Origin: Rhizopus arrhizus
Taxonomy: Eukaryota > Mucoromycota > Mucoromycetes > Mucorales > Rhizopodaceae
Assembly: GCA_024220505.1 (NCBI GenBank)
Contig: JAKZZE010000001.1
Span: forward strand, 806,001 to 870,000
Direction: 5' to 3'
DNA: 64,000 bases
In this document: positions 19,474 through 61,534 of the stretch, piece after piece
Layout: each line of letters starts with the position of its first letter
Position numbering within the stretch: the stretch's first letter is position 1
The notes under the pieces: model-generated
Told to the model about the DNA's origin: nothing
What the model saw: only the letters and a program-made list of their open reading frames with translations
Databases searched by the model: none
Translations under genes and position numbers: made by a program

Positions 19474-19555
19474 ATTACAGTTAAAGAAACTAGGTTGGGC
19501 CAATGAAAAAAAAATTTGGTCAATTTAAAATTGAATTGGGACACGGTTGCCAAAA
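19474..19555 (+). repeat. Left terminal inverted repeat of Fanzor element
   Basis: 82 bp from ATTACAGTTAAAGAAACTAG to GACACGGTTGCCAAAA. It matches the reverse complement of 22750-22832 throughout, except for one indel and one substitution in the central A/T run. It includes an internal palindrome, CAATTTAAAATTG. Confidence 0.9.
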
Positions 19556-19999
19556 TGGGATACCAATGCGAAAATGGGACAAAGGAGAGACAGAATGTTA
19601 GTTTTTTCTTTTTTTGGACGAATAATAATTGATTTAAAATGTTTAATTCACCTTTTTTTGGAAAAAGGGAAAATGGAAATCGGACAAAGCAGTAATTTTT
19701 GAAACCATTGCTTAAGTTATGAATATTCATCTTCAAAATGGACAGATTTACTTAGCCCCCGTATAGCCAATTACATTACCTGCCAGTCTATTAGTTAAAT
19801 AGTCAAGAAAAGCATATGACTAGTAATTACGCTGGATCGTCACAAGCTATAGTTTTGAGATGCTCCAAAGCAATTAATCAGTTTTGCTACTGTTATATAT
19901 CAAAAAACTTTCATTGGTCATTAAGGATTTCAATAGAAAGTAACAGAACTTGAACTAATCTATAAACATTTATTTTCTTTCTGAAGCTTATAATAGATA

Positions 20000-22669
20000 A
20001 TGAAGCGAAGATATAAAAATGATCCCACGAAGAGCTCGTCAACAAAAAGAAAGATTTTAAAGAGTAAGTACCAAAATAACACATTGCGAGGTATCATTTT
20101 CCTTACTTTTTTTCAAGAAGTCAATTCTGATAATATATCAGTTACATCTGCTCTGACCACTTCAGTTGCTTCTGGTTCACAAGCTTCTACTTCACAGGCT
20201 CCTAGTGCTCTTCCTCCTACCTCCAAAAAGATACAGAAGAAAATAGATAAACAACTTGCTTTGCAGGACTTTAGAATGAAAACAAAAAGCAATACAGAAA
20301 AGACATGTCCTTCTTGCGGATTGCATACTCACTCAAGATCATCATCCAACCTTTGCCCAAAAAAGAAGCAAAAGGAGCCATCTCACAATCCTGATGAGAA
20401 AAAGGAAACCTTTGCAATCAAATCCTCCTTAAAAAATACATGTACGGACACAAGGGTTTATGAAAAGATTGCTTCAGTAGTGACCTACACAACCAAAGCG
20501 ATCCACGTAGGCTCACTATTTATGAACTATATTTTTTTGAAGCTTTTAAACAAGGGAGAAAAAGTGCCAATTATTGATCATACCCTTGTCTATTCTATTT
20601 TCACTGTTGTAACTGGCAATGGCAAAAAAGTCCCTAAATACTGTCAAGATTACTTTGTTGAATTTTGCAACGAATGCCAAGTCAATGAAACAACTCTGCA
20701 ATCCCTCAAGAGTATTGGATATTCGTCTGTTCTGTCTATTATGTGTAAACAATATGATGTACTCATACGCAACCATGTGTGTGAAAATCATGAAAGGAGA
20801 ACAACCCGCTTTTTTCTGGAAGCTTTTTCAGACATGTCTTCTCCCTTCTATTGCAAAGGATTATCAGTTGCCCAAAGAAAAGCACTCTCTCACTATGTTT
20901 ATACATTAAAGCAGAAACAGCAATCAATATGGCCCTCATCTTTAGAAAGAAATCAATGTTTAGAAGAAACCATAGGGAAGATGAATGCATTATGGAGTCG
21001 ATATCAGACAATGAACTGCGATGCGGAAGACCTGTACTCCAAACCTCATGAATTCTTCAAATGGTTTTTCTATCTTCAGCAAAAGATAAATGAGAAGGTG
21101 TATATTATGGAAGATAAACCATCCACCTTTGCCTCCAAGTCCTACATTTATAGGAAGTTAAAAGAACTCACGTTTACTTCAATACTCAATAGACGAAGCT
21201 TCAAGTCTTTACAGGAACAAGTATTGCAAAGCATTAATTCAAAAATACCACTAGTGCTTGGGAATAAATTAGAGAAGCTTGAGCCCCATTTACCTGCTCT
21301 TTTGAAATTTATTACAAGTATCCAGTCTAGAATTGAAGATGGAACATTCACGCCTGCTAAATACACGGATCGGCAAGGCTATCGCTTTTTTTCCATCTTA
21401 CCTGTATACTCATTTGCGATGAAGTCAATACAAATAGATACCCAAGCTTTCTGGCGACTGTTGAAGCAATCTGGTATTGAAAATATCCCAAAAGGTGTTA
21501 AAGATAAATCGGCTCTCTCGGACTTCTACTATAGGCTTTTTAACTTTTCCAAAATGGGATTTCGAACTCGAAAAAGCCTTTCAGAGGGGAAAAAACAGTT
21601 TCAGTAAGTTAGCTTAGTTGAATTGAAAAATAAGAAACTTGATCTAATCAAGTTATACATAGAAACGTTATATATACCGATGGGTATTCGATTTCTTTCC
21701 TTTTTTCTAGAGTGAGGAAGAAAAAACAAATAGATACTCTACTGGGAAAACAGCCTGAGGACTTCCTCGAAGATATTGAAAATGGCTGTGAAATTTGGGG
21801 AGTAGATCCTGGTGTTGCCACACTTGTAACTGCCGTCGATACATCCGGAAGGCAAAGGACTACAAGCTTGGACGAGTACTATCATCTGTGTGGCTATAAT
21901 GATGCGAATTCTATACGAAAAAAGCATCAAGAACAACACAAGGCTCAGTTTTTGAAATTTTCTAATTTAAGCTCGTTGAAGACATCCAATATGGCAGAAT
22001 TTTTAAAAGCTTGCAAAGAAAGACTAAGTTTATATGACGATATTACAAGTTACTACAATGAAAAATCTTGGTAAATAAAAACATGATTTTTTTTACTTGC
22101 TTACTTGAGCAACATACAAAAATCTGTGTAGGTCGTCAAAGCTGAAGTTCAAATGCTACATGAGAAAACAAAAAGGTGTTCATGAGATCTGTAAGCGCTT
22201 CATTTACGGTAGTGCCAAATACGATGAAAAAGCAACTACAGGCGTAAGCACATCCACCAAGAAAGATAATAGATACTATCCTTCTGCTCCCATTGATCAC
22301 GAAAAAAGATCCAAGAAAACCATCATTGCTTTTGGTGATGGTATGTTTGGTTCCAGCCTCCGTGGAAATAAATCTGCTCCTGTGCGGATGATTAAGAAGG
22401 CTTTGAAAAAATATTGTGGAGAGCAGCTTGATATTTGCATGGTGGATGAATATTTAACAAGCCAAATCTGCAACAAATGCAAGACTAGAAACGTAGACAA
22501 TGTTGTGACAGCCAAATCAAAACGAAGAGTACATATGGTATTGCAGTGTAAGCAAAACAATTGCAATATCATATGGAATCGTGATATCATGGCTGCTCAT
22601 AACATACTGGATATATTTTTATTTGCTGCAAAAAACAAAAATCAGCGTCTTGATGCCTTTGTGCGTTAG
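20000..22669 (+). CDS. Fanzor-like RuvC nuclease (eukaryotic TnpB homologue)
   Basis: Exons 20000-20063, 20118-21603, 21711-22070 and 22132-22669 give 815 residues with no internal stop. Near residue 90 is a zinc-knuckle-like CPSCGLHTHS motif. The middle 450 residues are helical and unrecognised. The C-terminal third shows the split RuvC fold: EIWGVDPGVATLVTAV (RuvC-I, Asp549) and IIAFGDGMFGSS...RGNK (about 701-717). The rearranged RuvC-II glutamate of Fanzors is in VDEYLTSQICNKCK (Glu743), the zinc ribbon is C750/C753/C776/C781, and WNRDIMAAHNI is RuvC-III (Asp788). This order and the shifted glutamate identify Fanzor, known from published work on a chytrid and other eukaryotes to be an RNA-guided DNA nuclease. 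The first intron (54 nt) is in frame and stop-free, so its retention would yield an 833-residue form. All catalytic positions are intact. Confidence 0.9.
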
Positions 22670-22832
22670 TTAGATCCCAGTGGCCAGCTTTCCGTGTGAT
22701 TGATATGACTCTCTCATACTTCTGTACAGTGTAAGTTGGACAAGTTTTTTTTTGGCAACCGTGTCCCAATTCAATTTTAAATTGACCAATTTTTTTTTTT
22801 CATTGGCCCAACCTAGTTTCTTTAACTGTAAT
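22670..22832 (+). ncRNA. Candidate guide (omega/f) RNA locus at element 3' end
   Basis: The 163 bp between the Fanzor stop and the right end of the element contain no frame. In TnpB and characterised Fanzor systems the scaffold RNA is transcribed from this end of the element, and its guide reads into flanking DNA. By that analogy the guide here would start at about 22833. This is inference from position only; no conserved scaffold structure could be verified by eye. Confidence 0.3.
22750..22832 (-). repeat. Right terminal inverted repeat of Fanzor element
   Basis: 83 bp, inverted relative to 19474-19555. The central homopolymer is one base longer than in the left copy. The near identity of the two ends implies recent insertion or conversion. 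Confidence 0.9.
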
Positions 22833-25800
22833 CAACTCAATATTCACAGCCTTGCTCATACTAAAAAAAAAAAAGGTACTTATCGCTTAGTAATTATCAA
22901 ATAAAAGTCTTGTTATTTAATTTTTATACCAATGAGATGATTCTGTGTATAAGAGCTTAATATCTCAAGACCATATTGCCCTCATCAATAATCTACTCCG
23001 TAGGCGTGAGCTGCCTATAGTAGCAACTTTGATTTTTTCTATGTTAAATAGAACTCATCGATTTTCATCAGGAATAACCAGTCAAAAAGAGAAAAAGACT
23101 TCTGATTGAAGACAACGACTTCCAAGAATCGAATGAAAAAGTAATAGGCTCTGATCGCTCTGAACTATCACCTTATTCTCAAAATTATAGAAGGAGCGAG
23201 ACCATGAAGATGGAAGTGATTCATAAAATAAAGCCCAATTAAAAGACATATACAAATCTTTTCAGACTTATCTGGAAATGCTGCATTAGACATGCAACCA
23301 ACCGGATCTGGAGTAATTTAGACCGTCAGAGCGCATTATTTCGACATGAAAACAGGTATTCATTTGATTCTTTAGGTAAATATAAACATGTTGTATCTGA
23401 AAGATGGGGATGTGTATTTGAGAATAGCTGTACTCAAAATAAATTATTTGCTGTCAAGTTTTTATGTTTCTGAACAAAAAATGTTTTATATACATTTTGT
23501 GCTATTAGATGCTTTGCTATTTATTTCTAAAAAATGTTCCTTAGCAGAGCGTTTTGAAGTTAAAAGTTAATCCTGCGCCATGACACAAAAAGTTTGAAAA
23601 AGAAGAAAAGCAATTGTCAATTTGTATCGAGTTGTAGTTCATAAAATAATAAAGATCTAACTTAACCATTCTTTGGCTATCTCTTGCTTGCATTAGCTTA
23701 AGAATGGTGGGTTTGGTTCACCACTCAGAAGCAGAAGAGTGCAAGTTGGTCACTGTTCTGAATTGTCAGTATCATTTTCTTTCTTCAAAAAGACAATAAA
23801 CAAAGTACATGTCAGTATTCTTGAACATCTCAATTGAAGCAAATGAAAACTAGTCCGCTAAGTACTTCAACAGAATCAAAGCACCAAAATTCTTCTTGTG
23901 ACTATCTTGTTTTGAAGGATTCGAGATTTTCAGGTATAAGCACCTCCAGTGTCTTGATTACACACAACTTTACAAGACCAGTTATCTTGTTCTAGTTTTT
24001 GATATTCGTATAGTAGTTAAATGCTTTCAATCGCATTCACATTGGCAGCCAGTATACTTCATTAGGCTTGAATTAAGGCTTGGTTTCATGGTTTTAACAA
24101 CATTGGTCATGATCCCAAGGTACCCACAGAGAAGGATCCAGTTAAAGACAGGGTCACCATATTTTATGCTAGTGTGTGGAGTAAACGCTACGATATTGTC
24201 TTTATCCTAACAGTTTTAGTGAAAGAAAGAATCATTTTACTAAAGCCATATACTGTTCATGACCAATGGCATTTATGCATGCATATATTAAATACAGAAA
24301 GTTTAAAAATTTAATATTTAACTTGCATTAAGCTGCCTGAAGATAAAAACGCAGCTTAAAGAAAATCAAGAGAATTTCTTTCAATCATAATTTAGTCATA
24401 AAAATAGGATGAACCAGGCCATTTTAAGAATTATTTGCATTTCAAAAACAAAGAGACAGCATAGACATCAATTTGATGGTAAAATAAAGCTTATTGGAAC
24501 AAAGAGAACGGTTAATAGTTGAAACTAAAACAAGATACTTTCCTTGCGTATTGCCTTTTTTGTAAAGTATAAAGCTTTTAAATTTTTAAAAGAATCCAAG
24601 AACGTGACTATAAATAGATGTAATTGAACGTTTGTAAAGAACTATGCTTATATTTTCTTTAATTAGAAAAAGCTGTTTAAAGTATATGTTTTGCGTTTTC
24701 GTACAGTTTTTGTTTTGATGAATGGAACATGAGAATGCATGAATATATTTAACTATATAAAATCAGTTCAACTCTAAAACATTTTATACATATTAAAAAA
24801 AGGGGGGAGAAAGGAGTTCAGTGATGAAGTGAGCAAGCTTATAGCAGATAGGATGGCAGCAGATGAATCATGAAATAATGTACAGTTCTCACGGGTTACA
24901 TCAAATGGCTCAAAAGTCGCAAATAAAAAAAGTATTAATAAGAAGCAGACTGCTCTTGTTCTTTACCAAGTCCGTCTGGCTGCACTCCTTTATGAAGTCT
25001 ACGACCGTCTCACGGTCCGATTCTTTTTAGAGTCGTGTCAAGTTTTCCTATTTCTTGTGAAAAAATCAGGTTTTTTGCGAGCTCTTTCGGGTTCGTCAAT
25101 GTAATTCGATGAAAATGAAAAAAAAAATAAGAGTAAAATAAGTGGCTTTACTGCTCGTCCTCAATATTTAATGCATAAATTTAGTTTGTGTTAATTTTAT
25201 TCTATATTTATTTTTATTCAAAAACGAGAGTACTTGCTTATCACAAGTATTTTTATACGTTGCGGAATATATGATGTCCCAGTTGACGAGCAAGATGAAG
25301 ATGGAACAGCTATTTCAAAACTTTTATGCTCGAAAACTACAGTAAATGCTATTGATGTATCCAAAAAGAGAATGCACTTGGCGTATGTGTGTTTGAAAAG
25401 ATGCAAACCTATAAGAATGTGGTGTTTTTGAAGCTAGATCGTTCGAAATCTTTAGAAAATTTGAAAAGATATTGATTTTAGTATAAAAAGTTACTATTGT
25501 TTCCTTTCAAGACAATTACATAGAAATATATCTAGAATAATGCTTGTAAATTGCAGTAGTATTTCTTGTAATATAACACACGTTTAAAGGATTCAAATAT
25601 GATTAGAAGTGGGTTATTTGAAAAGGAGATGGTAACCTAGAGACGGGATTGAAACAGGGCGCGCTTCTACTGCTGCTTTACTTATATACATCATTTATCT
25701 AACGCAGCGTGTTTCCCCAATAAAATTGTACTTTTCTTTGTCATCAACCGCAGGACAAATTCTCCCAGTAAAAAATAAAAGAGGCTTACAAGAAAGAAAA

Positions 25801-31239: not shown

Positions 31240-34200
31240 TTAAAATTCATCAGCATCATCAAGTTCATCATCATCAATCAAATGTTCTTCTGAACCATCA
31301 TAATCTTGTAATAAAACATCTGTTTGTTCATCTTGTCCTAAAGCACTGTAGCCTGCTCCTCTTCTTCCAGAGAGGAAAGAAGGTAAATGAATATTGCTAA
31401 ACATACCAGTGATATCTGATAGCGATCTTGGAATAGGAATACGTGATAAAATGCCAATGATAGCTACTGGAATTACAAATGCAGCTGCTGCCATCTTTGT
31501 AATAAGAGGACTTGAAAGTATATTGGTTCTTAGTTGATGTGTACCATCTTGAAGTCGAATACGACTATAAAAAAAAGATTAAAAATCATCTCTTCTATTT
31601 CTAGCATGTGTCTTACCCGAAGCTTCCACGTTTACGATAATAAAGGACAGCAAAGATGATACCAGCTCCAAACAATGGCAAAAGAAGGAAAGCTACCCAT
31701 CCAGCACCACTTCCACTCGATCGTCTTGCGTTGGGACACATTACTTTTTCTCCCAGCTTGTCTAATTCATCACCACCTTCACATGTAGACGCAGCAATCT
31801 TTCGATATCTATCATAATTGATTAGTCTCACATACATACATTTCAGCAACTTATTTTACCCTGAAGGAGTGTAATAATGATCTATCGTGCCATCACACTT
31901 TGGTACTAGAGGTGATAATCCAGGAACCAAGACACATTTGCCATTTGAATCCCTCACATAATTATAATCACTATTACAAGTTAGTTGTGGCCATACGAAG
32001 AAACTCAATCATTTACCATTCAAAGTCTTCTTCTGCACAAGCACAATTACGAATTACTTTTTCTTGGATTAATTTAGTGCCAACGTAACAATCGTGGTCT
32101 CTAATACGACGGAAATAAGCCGTCTCACGACCAAATAAACATTTTTCACCTCGAGTGTCTTCAGGACTCCAAAGTTCAAAATCATCATTGTTTGGATTAT
32201 CAAGATCCAAGACACCTACAAGAGATATAAGTTTATTTGTTTGCTACATGTAGTCACTTACATTGGTTGGGACGAAGAGGACTGAAATCAATATGAATAG
32301 CAACCGTCTTACCACCCTTTAATCCAAACAAAACATACTTTTGGCTTGTACCATCAGGTTGGGTGATGATGTCCTCAATGATCACACGATCACTCTTGGT
32401 CGTAAACTCAAAAGTGTTCCAGCTCAATCCTTCTGTCATCGTATACTTGATGCTGTTGGTAGGTTGCTCATTGTCTGCCAAGATCAAAAGAGAGCCTTGA
32501 TCAGCGAATTCCCAAAGATGAGCTCCCTTGGCAATCTCAGTCCAAGTCTTGCCCGCATCACGCGTCAAAAACATGTCACCATCGCGATAATTTGACAAAC
32601 GATCTCCTACGTTACCCACACCTACCATCAAACCAACCGCACTTGATAAACTAAACAAATCACGCGAATTTTGACGTTCAGAATAGCAGTGCAAGTTTAA
32701 GAAACATCCGTCACGTGGGCAGGAGTAAGAGTTTCCATTGCTGTCCCTTTTGGGTGCTTGAATTGGGTGCCAGTGTCCGCCAGCGTCTGCAGTCATTTGG
32801 GTTGATAAAATCTTGTGGTCACCTCGGTTGGCTTGGTTGGGGTTGGTCACAACGTTGGCAATGGCGATACCTTCGATACCTTGCATTTTTTCGAAATCGA
32901 CAATGCCCATCTCATTTCGATTTGCGTTCTTTAGTGAGTCAACATAGTATGTTCCGTTTGAGTTGGAATTGAAAATTGTACCATATTCGCTACCTTTGCG
33001 TGCATTTGTTGTAACGTGGATCCATAATGAATTGATTGATTCCATGATTGTGAACGCCTTTAGAAAAGACCGTGTTTAATGTTTCGAATAGCAGTAATAT
33101 TAAAACTTACCTCGGTTGATAAATCAAAATCGGCAGGAAAACGAGCAGTAGCAAACGTATTGCCATCCAAACTGACAAGTAGTTGAAGATTTGCTCCACC
33201 ATTCTTTGAAGCAGCGACAACCATGTACTTACCAAACACAGTAACTCCAACAATGTTCTCGAGTACAACTTTCTTATTGTGAAAATAATCTTGAGAAGAT
33301 ATAAACTGAAGTGATGAACCAAAAAGAGCCATTTGGTTACCAGACTGCTCTCGATATTGCTCACAGAAAATAGAATTACGGTGTGTGTCCTTGATGCTTC
33401 CTTCTCTACCCCAGATACAGTTACGTACATAGGTACCCAAAGAAGTCCATGTACGACCATTATCATGACTGTAATATGCTTCAGAATGACAGCTGGACCC
33501 AAAGCCACCCTGGCAGTTCTTTTCACCAATATAAATCAAATAATCAGGGTCATCATTATGGAAGTTCATGATGGTTCCTTGAAGGTTCAACAGAGGGCCC
33601 ACAGGAACCTTCATTTCAACATAATTGGCTCCTTTATCGGTTGTCATAAAATGAGTGGTGCCTTCTGTAATAAAGTAGGTACGTTGATCAAAGTGTGGGT
33701 TTTGATACATGGATATGATTCTATGACCTTCAAAGAGTTCTCTCCAACTATAACCGTCATTGTCGCTACGCCATACCTTACCATCCATCGTACGAACAAT
33801 CACACGATCAGTATCACTAAAGTAAATATAGTCCACAACGCGATCGGTAAATGCAAAGGTACTCGAGATGATACTGCCCTTCTCACCACAATCCCATTCA
33901 ATATCTCCTTTGAGATCAATGCCTCCAGTGCAACTACTCTTTGAGATCTTTTTATAACCTGATCGACCCTTGAATTTACTGCCAGGTTGACAAGTTGGGG
34001 GTCTATCGGGATGAGGGCCAATACTGACACAGTTGCCGCTTTCATCTCGCCAAAATCCAAAATCGCATTCATAATCAATATCACGACATTCACAGTTCTC
34101 TAATATTGTCTGAGGCTCATGGAATTGAGCATTTACCTTGCAGACACGATCCTTCTTGCGACGCCAGTAAGCTGTCTTTTTACCCAACAAACAGGCGTCA

Positions 34201-37200
34201 TCATTTTCATCGTCCTTGGGCGTCCAGCGTTCAAAGTCACTCTTTTCTTCATTGTTCTCTTGCAGCACGCACTGAGGTTGATTGGTATGCGTAAAATCAA
34301 CCGTAACCATCACCGGTGACCTTTCTCCTAATCGAGAATGACCTAGGATCACAAATTTCAGAGTAGAAGACTTGGGGTCCGTGGTCAATGTCTTGACACG
34401 AATAGGATCATCAGCAAACTGATAGGAGTGCCATGAGCTTCCCTGATCCCAAGAATACAGCAATTCATTCGTTGGCTTTTCATCCGTCACAAGCACCAAG
34501 AGAGATCCCTGATCACCAAATTCATAAAAGTGTTCTCCATCCCGGATCTTGATCCAGTTGTGTCCTCCATCACGCGTCAAGAACGTATCACTCTCTGTAT
34601 ATTCGGTGAGAGCTGGCCCCACGTTACCAACGCCCATCGCCAGACCAGGGGCACCAGAAGAGGAAAAGATGGCACCCATGCCGTGGATATCTGTGCGGCT
34701 GTGAAGGTTCAGGGTACATTCTTTAGTGTCACAATCGATATTGGTGGGTGGTGCAAGAGGTTGCCATGACCCACCGTCATCCCAAGAGATCATGGTGCGC
34801 ACCTTTTTCAACTTGTCAGGGTTGCTCACCAATTCATCTGCGTTCCAGACTTGATTGGCCAAGATGATGCCATCGAGGTTTTGAAACTTTTCAAAGTCGA
34901 CATAGCCCACACCATCGACGTTTGTGTTATCGAGAGATAAATGATAGAATGTGCCATTTTCATTGGACTTGTAAAGTGCTCCGGATGATCTTCCGTAACC
35001 AAGCGTTTTGAAGACGTTTAATAAAATAGAGTGCGTTGTTGATTGAAGAACAGTAAAGGTCTATAAAAATATGAGTTTCATCGGGATTTCTTTTTTTTTC
35101 ATCTTGTCAACTTACCATACGATTCACATATTCATCTGGAGGGAATTTTGCTTCAGAAAATTCTGTGCCATCTATGCTGACGTACAAGGCAAGTTCGCCC
35201 TTATGGCTCGATGCAACGGCCATAAAGTCTTCGACCACAAAGAATTCGACAAGATTTTCAAAGTAGACATCTGTTGTCTCTGCTAAATATCTTGTGCGTA
35301 CCAATCTTAGACCTGCATCTACATCGTTTTTATTGTAGGCAGAGCAAAAGATGACATCTTCGTCAATCTTGAAGTTGACATCGCGTCCAAAGATACATTT
35401 TTCAACATACAAGTCTAGGGCAGTCCAGTCACGTCCATGGTTTCTAGAAACGTAAGCTTCATTGTGAGGCACAGGTTCATTTGATTTTCCAATAAAGAGC
35501 AGCCAATCCTTTTGAATAGGATGGAAATCGAGTGTCTGAGGCACTCGTTCACTAGGTGGCGCTGGTACCTTGATTGAGTGCCAGGTTTGACCTTGATCCT
35601 CTGTGAAATAGATACCATCTTGCAAGATAGCATAGGCACGATTATTATCAAACTCATGCAGAATCACATTATGAATGATGCCTTCATTTTCAAGCACACG
35701 CGCCCAGTCTACTCCTTGATTTCCTGATCTCCACAATTCACCTACTTGAAGACGAACCAAGATGGCCTCAGAATCCCTGAAATAGAGAAACTGTTCGATC
35801 TCGCTATTGAACGTGATTTGATAACGTGAAATTTCCTTTTCACCCTCGGCAATATTTTGGTCCTCAGGAGATGGAACGATACCTGCGATATTTTCGCTGC
35901 ATTTACGATCCACTGGATAATCGAGACGTCCTTGGCTTGGTGGTATACATGTGTTGCCAGAAATAAGACGGTATCCACTGGATGCAGGATAATAATCATC
36001 TTTGGAAGTGCATTGATTAGCAAAGATACGATCAGGACCGATACGTACACAATCTCCATTCTTGTCACGAGCAAAATTATAATCACATTCATAATCGGCT
36101 CGTGTACAAGGGCAGTTCTTAACCTCTACCTCAGGGTCTTGGAATTCACGACCTACATAGCAATCTCTATCAGCCTTGCGACGATAGAAAATTTGTTCAT
36201 GTCCCATCAAACAATCAGCTCCTTCTGTAAGATCACGAGCATACCATTTTTCAAAATCGCTATTAGCATCATTGTTTCTGTCCAATTGACACTGACGAGA
36301 AAAAATATTTGAAAAGTCAAGTTGGAAGATTTGCGCATTCTTTTGATCAGAGGAACGAACAGAGCCAGCGATCAAAAGGAATTTACGTGATGTGGACTCA
36401 GGATCAGTTGTGAGTGCTCTAGCTCGGACTGTCATACCAAGGCTCAATTTTTCCCTGTTAAAAAAGGAGATTTTTGTTTTAATACCAATAAAAAGTTGAT
36501 ATATACTTTGTTTTACCAATTCGTTCCTCGGTCTTTACTCCACCAAACATGATCTGTTTCTTTTTCGTCATCCACTGCCACAATTAATGTGCCCATGTCT
36601 CCAAATTCATACATGTGTGCTCCTTCACGAACCCTCTGCCAACTAATACCGCCATCGATGGATAAGAATGTGTCACATTCGTCATAATTTAATAAAGACG
36701 AGCCATAGCTTCCTACGCCCATCAAGACACCCACTGCAGTTTGTGAAGAAGCCACTTGTCCAAAATTATGATTGGAAGTAACAGAGTGTAAATGAAGTGC
36801 ACACTAGTATATAAAAGGAATGAGCTTCTTTTTTTTCAATAGCAAAAAACATCACTTTACCTCACTATCGTGACACTCCAAGCCTTTTACGTTAGTCATA
36901 GGTTTCCAACTTCCGCCATCATCAAAACTGATACGTGTTTGAACCACCTTTTCAACCATTTGGGACTCTACTTGACGAGGATTCATGATTTGATTTGCAA
37001 TCAACACGCCTTCAACGCCAGGAATACGTTCCACATCAATATAACCCATACTGTTTCTATTCGTATCTTCCAAACTTTTGACGAAAAAGGTACCGTTCGA
37101 ATTCGACTTGTACAGTGATCCAAATTGAGCATGAGCATCGCCTGCCAAGACATCGACCATCAAAGCAGGGTTCGAGCTCTCAATCAACGTAAATGACTTT

Positions 37201-60491: not shown

Positions 60492-61534
60492 AATTAAACC
60501 ATTTTGATTTTTTGTTTGTTTGTTTGTTAGATTGCTCCACTAAAAGAAAAATTTCTCTGGTAATAATAAAATAAAGATTGCTATTAATGCGCTTATTTGA
60601 AGTATACATTCAGAGCAAGCATAAAACAACGTGTATCTTATTATACCTTCTATTTTTTCTTATTGTTTTTCCTTGGATTTAGTGGAACCACTCTCAGATA
60701 ATAATTTCTGATAAAATGTTTGACTTATTTATTCTCAAATAAAGCTAAATGCTATAGGTATTTGCTTATTTGATAATTTAAAAGATGAGAAATACACAAG
60801 AACAATAGTCTCATTAATTTTGATTTATCCTTTTGATAAAACCCACTGCTTACAAACATTTTGATGAAACTGTAATCTTTACTCGAACTGGATTAAAAAT
60901 GTATTACTAAAATGGAAAAAATGCAGTACAGTATTTCCACTTCAACTTCGACGAATCTCTTTAAACAACCATATATTGTAGCAGTCAAAATCTTTTTCAA
61001 CTTAAAAAAAACTTACTGGAAGGCTTCTTTGTAACTCTCCTTTTTTTAGCAGTTACTTCATTTGATTCAGATACTTCACTTGAAGGTAAGCCTTCTGATA
61101 CTGACATGTTGATTGCTTCTTTACCATGTTTGCTTTACTGTGCTCAGACCTGAAGCATAGCGTCTTCTTCGGCAGCAAACAAGCTTTCAATGCCTCTTCG
61201 GACATATGGAAAACAGCAGTATCATTTCTCTTATTAGCATGAGCTCTGGTGTTTTGATCCAACTGGCATGATGAATAGTAATATTGGAATATCAAGCGTC
61301 AAATTATATTTTGTCTGCAAACTGGGATATTGGCCAAAGGTTCATTAGCATATTCAAGAGTGCTTTCTTTGAACAAAAAGGTATTGAAAAATGTTGATAG
61401 ATGAAGAGGACAACATTTGATAAATTGTTGTCAGTAAAAGTAAGTATTGACGAATAAGGTAAAAAGCATTCATCGAGGTGCGTCTGCTGCAATATATGGT
61501 TGTTTAAGGAATTCCTGATGGTAGTCGATCGGAC
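60492..61534. other. Intergenic region
   Basis: No intact gene. A minus-strand open frame at 61295-61053 (including EEALKACLLPKKTLCFRSE) may be a scrap of a decayed gene. It is flanked by stops and has no recognised family. Confidence 0.35.

Follow-up and report, generated by a model that had tools for sequence, protein, structure and literature searches.

The window analysed here comprises 64,000 nt of the Rhizopus arrhizus genome (contig JAKZZE010000001.1, positions 806,001 to 870,000), and coordinates without a contig label refer to it. A transposon bearing one Fanzor1 gene was located on the plus strand, extending border to border (CAG...CTG) from position 19478 to position 22828, as set by the aligned ends of its copies. 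Its terminal inverted repeat arms span positions 19478–19555 (left) and 22750–22828 (right). The inverted arms 19474–19514 and 22792–22832 are 100% complementary and the arms 19506–19555 and 22750–22799 are 98% complementary, which combined gives 82/83 nt at 98%; this confirmed the near-identical 82/83-bp inverted repeats around one gene described in a previous sequence-only reading. The interval given in that reading (19474–22832) does hold the element, but its outer bases are flank. They include the right target-site duplication, TA at 22829–22830 (TA was found at all 32 right ends counted), and the sequence ATTA at 19474–19477, directly before the left end, which is a candidate target-adjacent motif (TAM) and whose TA (19476–19477) is the left target-site duplication. 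The fungal origin assigned to this DNA was corroborated by a Sec63 fragment in the window, whose identity is 100% with Rhizopus arrhizus, 97–98% with four records of R. delemar and 81% with a fifth. Elsewhere in the window, positions 32254–36519 carry long minus-strand open frames in tandem, which look by eye like pieces of a Vps10/sortilin-type receptor.

The Fanzor1 gene is composed of four exons on the plus strand (20000–20063, 20118–21603, 21711–22070 and 22132–22669) separated by three GT-AG introns, and encodes 815 amino acids with one terminal stop, in agreement with the intact frame and introns claimed for it. The complete RuvC triad claimed for the product was found, with D549 (codon 21805–21807, within a DPG motif) encoded by exon 3, and E743 (22448–22450) and D788 (22583–22585) by exon 4, which also holds the C4 zinc ribbon and the stop codon. 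D549 and E743 are separated by 193 residues, and E743 precedes the ribbon, which is followed by D788, the order that had been put forward as that of Fanzor. The Fanzor1 motif published in the available text of PMC3627910, D-X(125-275)-[TS][TS]-X-X-C4 zinc finger-X(5-50)-RD, was recognised in the form of D549, 196 residues to TS746, C750/753/776/781 and R787 D788. According to the available text of PMC10711439, two fingerprints set Fanzor apart from most TnpB proteins, a DPG at RuvC-I and a glutamate placed six residues ahead of the ribbon; both are present here, DPG at 549 and E743 six residues ahead of C750. The profile search proposed for the 815-residue product gave a Pfam match to PF07282 (TNB domain of the TnpB/Cas12f type) at residues 737–795 (1.3e-6, 28.9 bits, above the cut-off of 26.3), and no match in NCBIfam at E<=1. 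Six relatives with 43–61% identity were found; five are unnamed proteins, three from Cokeromyces and one each from Thamnidium and Pilobolus, and the sixth is a species-less record. Among solved structures there was no phmmer match and no relevant profile match, a weak check that carries little weight because Fanzor1s are very divergent. With the published motif, the DPG, the displaced glutamate and PF07282 all present, the identification as Fanzor held, and by sequence it is close to certain.

A search for further copies with the same repeats had been proposed, and in the genome (50.3 Mb, 41 contigs) it located at least 28 gene-bearing copies (L009–L036), 24 of which hold most of the coding region. 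Near full-length copies recur genome-wide at 93–98% identity with aligned ends, supporting the view of a recently mobile family with matching ends. The start-to-stop frame is open in 14 of the 24 copies, of which 12 retain canonical introns at every position; the other two, L016 and L026, have one altered splice site each. The residues D549/E743/D788 and C750/C753 are kept in 24/24 copies, and pN/pS was 0.32 for the 24 copies and 0.33 for the 12 intact ones. The window family is under purifying selection. Divergence of the gene among the 24 aligned copies is 1.5–3.4% (mean 2.4%), which may be read as a recent burst of the family. Of the proposal that this is a live and uncharacterised candidate, recent mobility stood, whereas the word uncharacterised needs care, since the available text of PMC3627910 records four Fanzor1 families in 2013 for Rhizopus oryzae RA 99-880.

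The element had also been considered intact, which is correct for the coding frame and introns, but the window copy is not the fullest one. A 75-nt stretch of the 5' leader is missing from it at 19758–19759 (placed by alignment, the exact position being ambiguous within a C run). Of the 23 other aligned copies, 20 have this stretch in full; in L010 and L027 it is reduced by 26 nt, and L032 is 5'-truncated. The internal 75-nt gap is thus confined to the window copy among the 24 aligned. In addition, the right arm of the window copy measures 82 nt, in contrast to ~213–220 nt in 12 of 28 copies; the short arm is common to the window copy and L010–L013, L015, L019, L020, L025, L032 and L033. Loss was distributed unequally between the two ends: 13 fragments retain only the right end (L010, L017, L023, L026, L032–L036, L038, L041, L042 and L062) versus one that retains only the left end (L039), with L027 retaining neither, a tally drawn partly from a pattern search that leans slightly towards right-type ends. 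At the broken left end of L038 (C39:1718500-1721500) lies a small inverted-repeat element with 43-nt arms placed 202 nt apart, and similar sequence occupies the same position in L010.

The right ends read CTG followed by TA, the target duplication of Tc1/mariner-like elements, and by this duplication and its CAG...CTG ends the window element is probably a non-autonomous Tc1/mariner-like transposon that carries a Fanzor1 nuclease. Membership of the Helitrons or MuDR was set aside because the target duplication is TA. No transposase with window-family ends was found. L061 (C28:270151-274948), which is 4.2 kb long, is bounded by perfect inverted repeats of 314 bp and has ends resembling those of the window family, was considered as the autonomous partner and rejected, with no transposase domain in the four frames scanned. 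One match to zf-RVT in these frames looks like a LINE piece. One of the frames encodes a protein that bears an RPDG...IEVK motif, is nuclease-like by eye and has 12 relatives, of which the seven named are all from Mucorales. A second Fanzor family with Tc1/mariner-type ends was found in at least 13 places of the genome. Its right end, CAGTATTTCTACTTTAAATTC, resembles the end of the DDE_3 transposon L047, which has TA duplications, and the left end of one member, L073, equals the L047 end over 21 nt, with no TA before it. These L047-like ends would support a Tc1/mariner setting for the Fanzors of this genome. The left ends of the second family are too varied for the comparison of scars given below. 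Five more places at 78–79% identity may be a third family; L053–L060 and L068–L080 belong to this wider set of second-family and further places. The sequence TACAGTATTTCCACTTCAACTTC at 60926–60950 of the window looks like one Tc1/mariner element end.

The sequences adjoining the two ends of the window family are asymmetric. Read inward, the right ends show TACAG in 32/32 cases with varied bases before the TA, whereas the left end is preceded by ATTA in 18 of 21 cases, the exceptions being ATTG (L016, L043) and ACTA (L018). AT stands before the TA at 6 of 32 right ends (Fisher 2.4e-6), and at a fraction of 0.099 of the TA sites in the window as background. The 21 left ends are 17 full ones, L013 and those of the gene-less L037, L039 and L043, with L040, L042, L044 and L061 left out for their right-type or other-family ends; the count of 32 right ends excludes L037, L040, L044 and L061. 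Sequence diversity is also unequal, at 0.029 over the terminal 41 nt on the right (24 copies) versus 0.091 over the first 41 nt on the left (17 copies, leaving out L010, L013, L017, L023, L026, L027 and L032). From the one-sided presence of ATTA we infer that it is the probable TAM of the window-family Fanzor. By analogy with the Fanzor loci described in the available texts of PMC10432273 and PMC10711439, and in line with the lower diversity of the right end, an omega-RNA would arise from the right end with its guide in the right flank: the 3' end of its scaffold (right end plus TA) is predicted at 22747–22830 of the plus strand and the guide at 22831–22845, the first 15 nt of the flank, since published Fanzor RNAs reach ~14–15 nt into it. 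The RNAs of insect-virus Fanzors run ~15 nt beyond the duplication (PMC10711439, available text). Folding of the right end was no better than that of shuffled sequences (z 0.38), and there was no match in Rfam. A small hairpin (UAGUU...AACUG) just before the presumed guide was seen in 22 of 27 folded right ends. The right end of L014 keeps only ~19 nt of the terminal repeat.

Comparison of the left ends with the right flanks revealed a second feature. After ATTA, a complete left end continues as CAGTGCAAG or CAGTTAAAG, or as a sequence close to these. In 6 of 18 copies, however, the opening bases of the left end are replaced by 3–11 nt that match the right flank of the same copy, at the predicted position of the guide (L029, 11; L013, 10; L019, 6; L020, 5; L018, 4; L031, 3 nt); L016 matches for 2 nt, L025 for 1 nt and the remaining ten copies not at all. 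When flanks were permuted among these copies (17 full left ends and that of L013, without the gene-less L037, L039 and L043 and without truncated copies), 0 of 200,000 permutations reached the observed total and 1 of 200,000 gave five copies with at least 4 nt; mismatched pairs of left end and flank agreed over at least 3 nt in 7 of 306 cases. In L018, L019, L020 and L029 the new bases equal in number those that were lost, and the duplicated stretch begins at ATTA in five of the six copies and at ACTA in L018. The scar copies differ by 1.7–2.2% from their nearest relatives, which is near the family mean. The original target corresponds to ATTA plus right flank, and TA is therefore the duplication and AT part of the target. 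The scars are real as sequence. Nevertheless, the 4–5 nt matches could be partly inheritance and chance, because the left-end variant CTGTGC is common to L018, L020 (whose nearest relative is L018) and L024, and the flank of L024 does not match; thus L029, L013 and L019 are the firm cases and those of 4–5 nt are softer. A search with the joined flanks of 17 copies, in which 40 of 337 candidates were scored, listed 50 matches; these were the copies' own loci and partial repeats, and none was an empty paralogous site that spans both flanks.

Fragments of a single LINE-like repeat adjoin the Fanzor left end in 3 of 17 full copies, namely L022 (C12:2047217-2046700), L029 (C1:184705-184038) and L014 (C13:375587-375860). 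The fragment shows by eye a coding resemblance to the C-terminus of zf-RVT. The pre-insertion motif plus target is visible left of the LINE in two of these copies: in L022, ATTA plus 8 nt of target lies there and the other end of the LINE adjoins ATTA and a complete left end, while in L029 ATTA plus 11 nt lies left of the LINE and the scar on its right. No clear target copy was found left of the LINE fragment in L014. Matches to the fragment were found in at least 40 places (best 40 of 97 candidates). The right flank of L021 likewise begins only a few bases from a repeat which, judging from the positions, may be the start of the same LINE.

One explanation for the scars, to which we give slightly more credit than to its negation, is that empty sites are cut by the Fanzor, after which the element is copied back, so that the nuclease, as an RNA-guided homing enzyme, would keep the transposon at its sites. 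The RNA from the right end would run into the right flank, which would serve as guide. Once the element leaves, or where it is absent from the sister chromatid or a neighbouring nucleus, the Fanzor would cut the empty site, with its ATTA and guide match, some 10–20 nt beyond ATTA. On the right, the break would end in sequence shared with the occupied copy and would prime copying through the right end, while the left side would keep a short, unmatched target tail after ATTA that could be trimmed, extended in register or end-joined, leaving a scar. Homing of this type would fix the right end exactly, leave the left end loose with a tail that falls short of the cut, and cost copies their left end more often than their right, and all of this is seen. 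The non-target-strand cuts of two Fanzor1s lie at 14–17 nt according to the available published text, and the tails here are of up to 11 nt. Replacements of the same length would be expected if the tail paired in register, and LINE cDNA caught in Fanzor breaks would account for the fragments at the borders. Among left-truncated copies a tail is confined to L013, where part of the left end survives; a script found no target tail at the junction of the 11 others, and none was seen by eye in L042 and L062. These truncated copies without tails count against homing as a complete account, as does the case of Chlamydomonas (below), where duplications occur mainly in truncated copies, and Fanzor-guided homing as the cause of the scars is about an even bet.

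The main alternative is that insertion proceeds right end first or is imprecise, and that a transposase or a one-ended process produces target duplications of variable length with no part for the Fanzor in the scar. An exact right end, a loose left end and longer duplications are together its expected outcome, and the comparable pattern of Chlamydomonas was interpreted by Bao and Jurka as one-ended transposition (available text of PMC3627910). However, the Rhizopus and Chlamydomonas elements are different transposon types, copies with a complete left end show TA only, the same-length replacements in four scar copies would not be anticipated, and the duplicated stretch starts at ATTA in five of the six scar copies. 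Moreover, the Fanzor-free TA elements L047, L061 and L083/L084 have plain TA at both ends without tails, and ATTA at 1 of 6 ends, in a control set that is tiny, the fourth such element (L081/L082) having mutated ends. On balance, we consider this explanation rather unlikely, though it should be kept in mind.

Two other readings were judged less probable still. TA-inserting transposases show flank preferences, and ATTA might reflect the taste of a transposase, with the matches being small mutations plus chance and the Fanzor a passenger or active in trans. Some matches are indeed short; nonetheless, those of 11, 10 and 6 nt are not chance, and a one-sided preference (18/21 left, 6/32 right) would be surprising in an enzyme that works on inverted repeats, for which reasons this reading is very doubtful. 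It is also improbable, if somewhat less so, that the target copies beside the LINE in L029 and L022 are ordinary LINE target duplications into which the Fanzor element was inserted afterwards. The arrangement in L022, with ATTAATCTATGA left of the LINE and ATTA, the Fanzor element and TAATCTATGA to its right, and that in L029, with TTACCATGAATAAA on both sides of the LINE, fit such duplications of 12–14 bp. An earlier LINE and a later Fanzor would thus explain these two copies, but not the repeated meeting: LINE and Fanzor coincide at 3 of 17 left ends, which is hard to credit to chance because the LINE fragment occupies 40 places among the matches listed. L013, L019 and L020 would also be left unexplained.

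Returning to homing, its layout can be compared with known systems. Spu-1 (SpuFz1) of Spizellomyces punctatus resembles the window family in that inverted repeats enclose a single Fanzor1 gene and no transposase, in its many copies and fragments, and in a conserved two-base motif just before the left end, as described in the available text of PMC10432273. The motif is CA in Spu-1 (TAM CATA) versus AT before TA here, and CA/CATA may be read as the same layout as ATTA before the left end. The two differ in their ends and protein (815 aa here), and in the gene-less pieces, about nine in this genome (L037–L044 and L062, some maybe of other families) in contrast to 134 Spu-1 ghost loci. Among Mucorales, PpFz1 of Parasitella parasitica is another Fanzor1, with the TAM 5'-ATN and a ~100-aa FRI domain in RuvC that binds cyclophilin (available text of PMC11423790). 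The Fanzor1 families of Rhizopus oryzae (ROr) and Mucor circinelloides (MCi) share the host group and a gene inside transposon ends; ROr-4 and MCi-4 are set apart by their description, with MuDR-like ends and 9-bp duplications (available text of PMC3627910), and the window family may be one of the other ROr families.

An independent parallel to the scars is found in the Fanzor1 elements CRe-1/2/3 of Chlamydomonas, which were assigned to the Helitrons and are often 5'-truncated. According to the available text of PMC3627910, duplications are absent where the 5' end is exact, most of the other copies have one of 7–19 bp just after TTTT or similar, a related Fanzor-free Helitron has a duplication in 1 of 200 copies, and the authors left undecided whether Fanzor causes them. 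Intact 3' ends, 5' loss, variable duplications after a fixed motif at inexact left ends and foreign pieces at some left junctions are common to both systems; by contrast, CRe elements have Helitron-type ends and their 7–19 bp occur chiefly in truncated copies, whereas those of the window family are of 3–11 nt in near-complete copies. Together, these scars and the Chlamydomonas duplications might be fossil traces of RNA-guided homing that sometimes caught LINE cDNA, with Fanzor and not the transposase as the common cause, a wider interpretation that we put just short of an even chance.

Fanzor1 in Rhizopus was already known; the end asymmetry and the scars are new. A literature search over partial texts and few subscription papers found no target scars presented as Fanzor footprints. 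Retention by cutting has been offered as a possible role of Fanzor for transposons (PMC10432273, available text). The window family supplies many similar copies (12 of 24 intact), together with ATTA as a predicted TAM and a set of predicted guides. Should the scars be Fanzor cuts, every genome that carries Fanzor copies would record past cutting, TAMs and cut distances would be readable from insertion sites, and the homing idea would be testable by comparison of strains.
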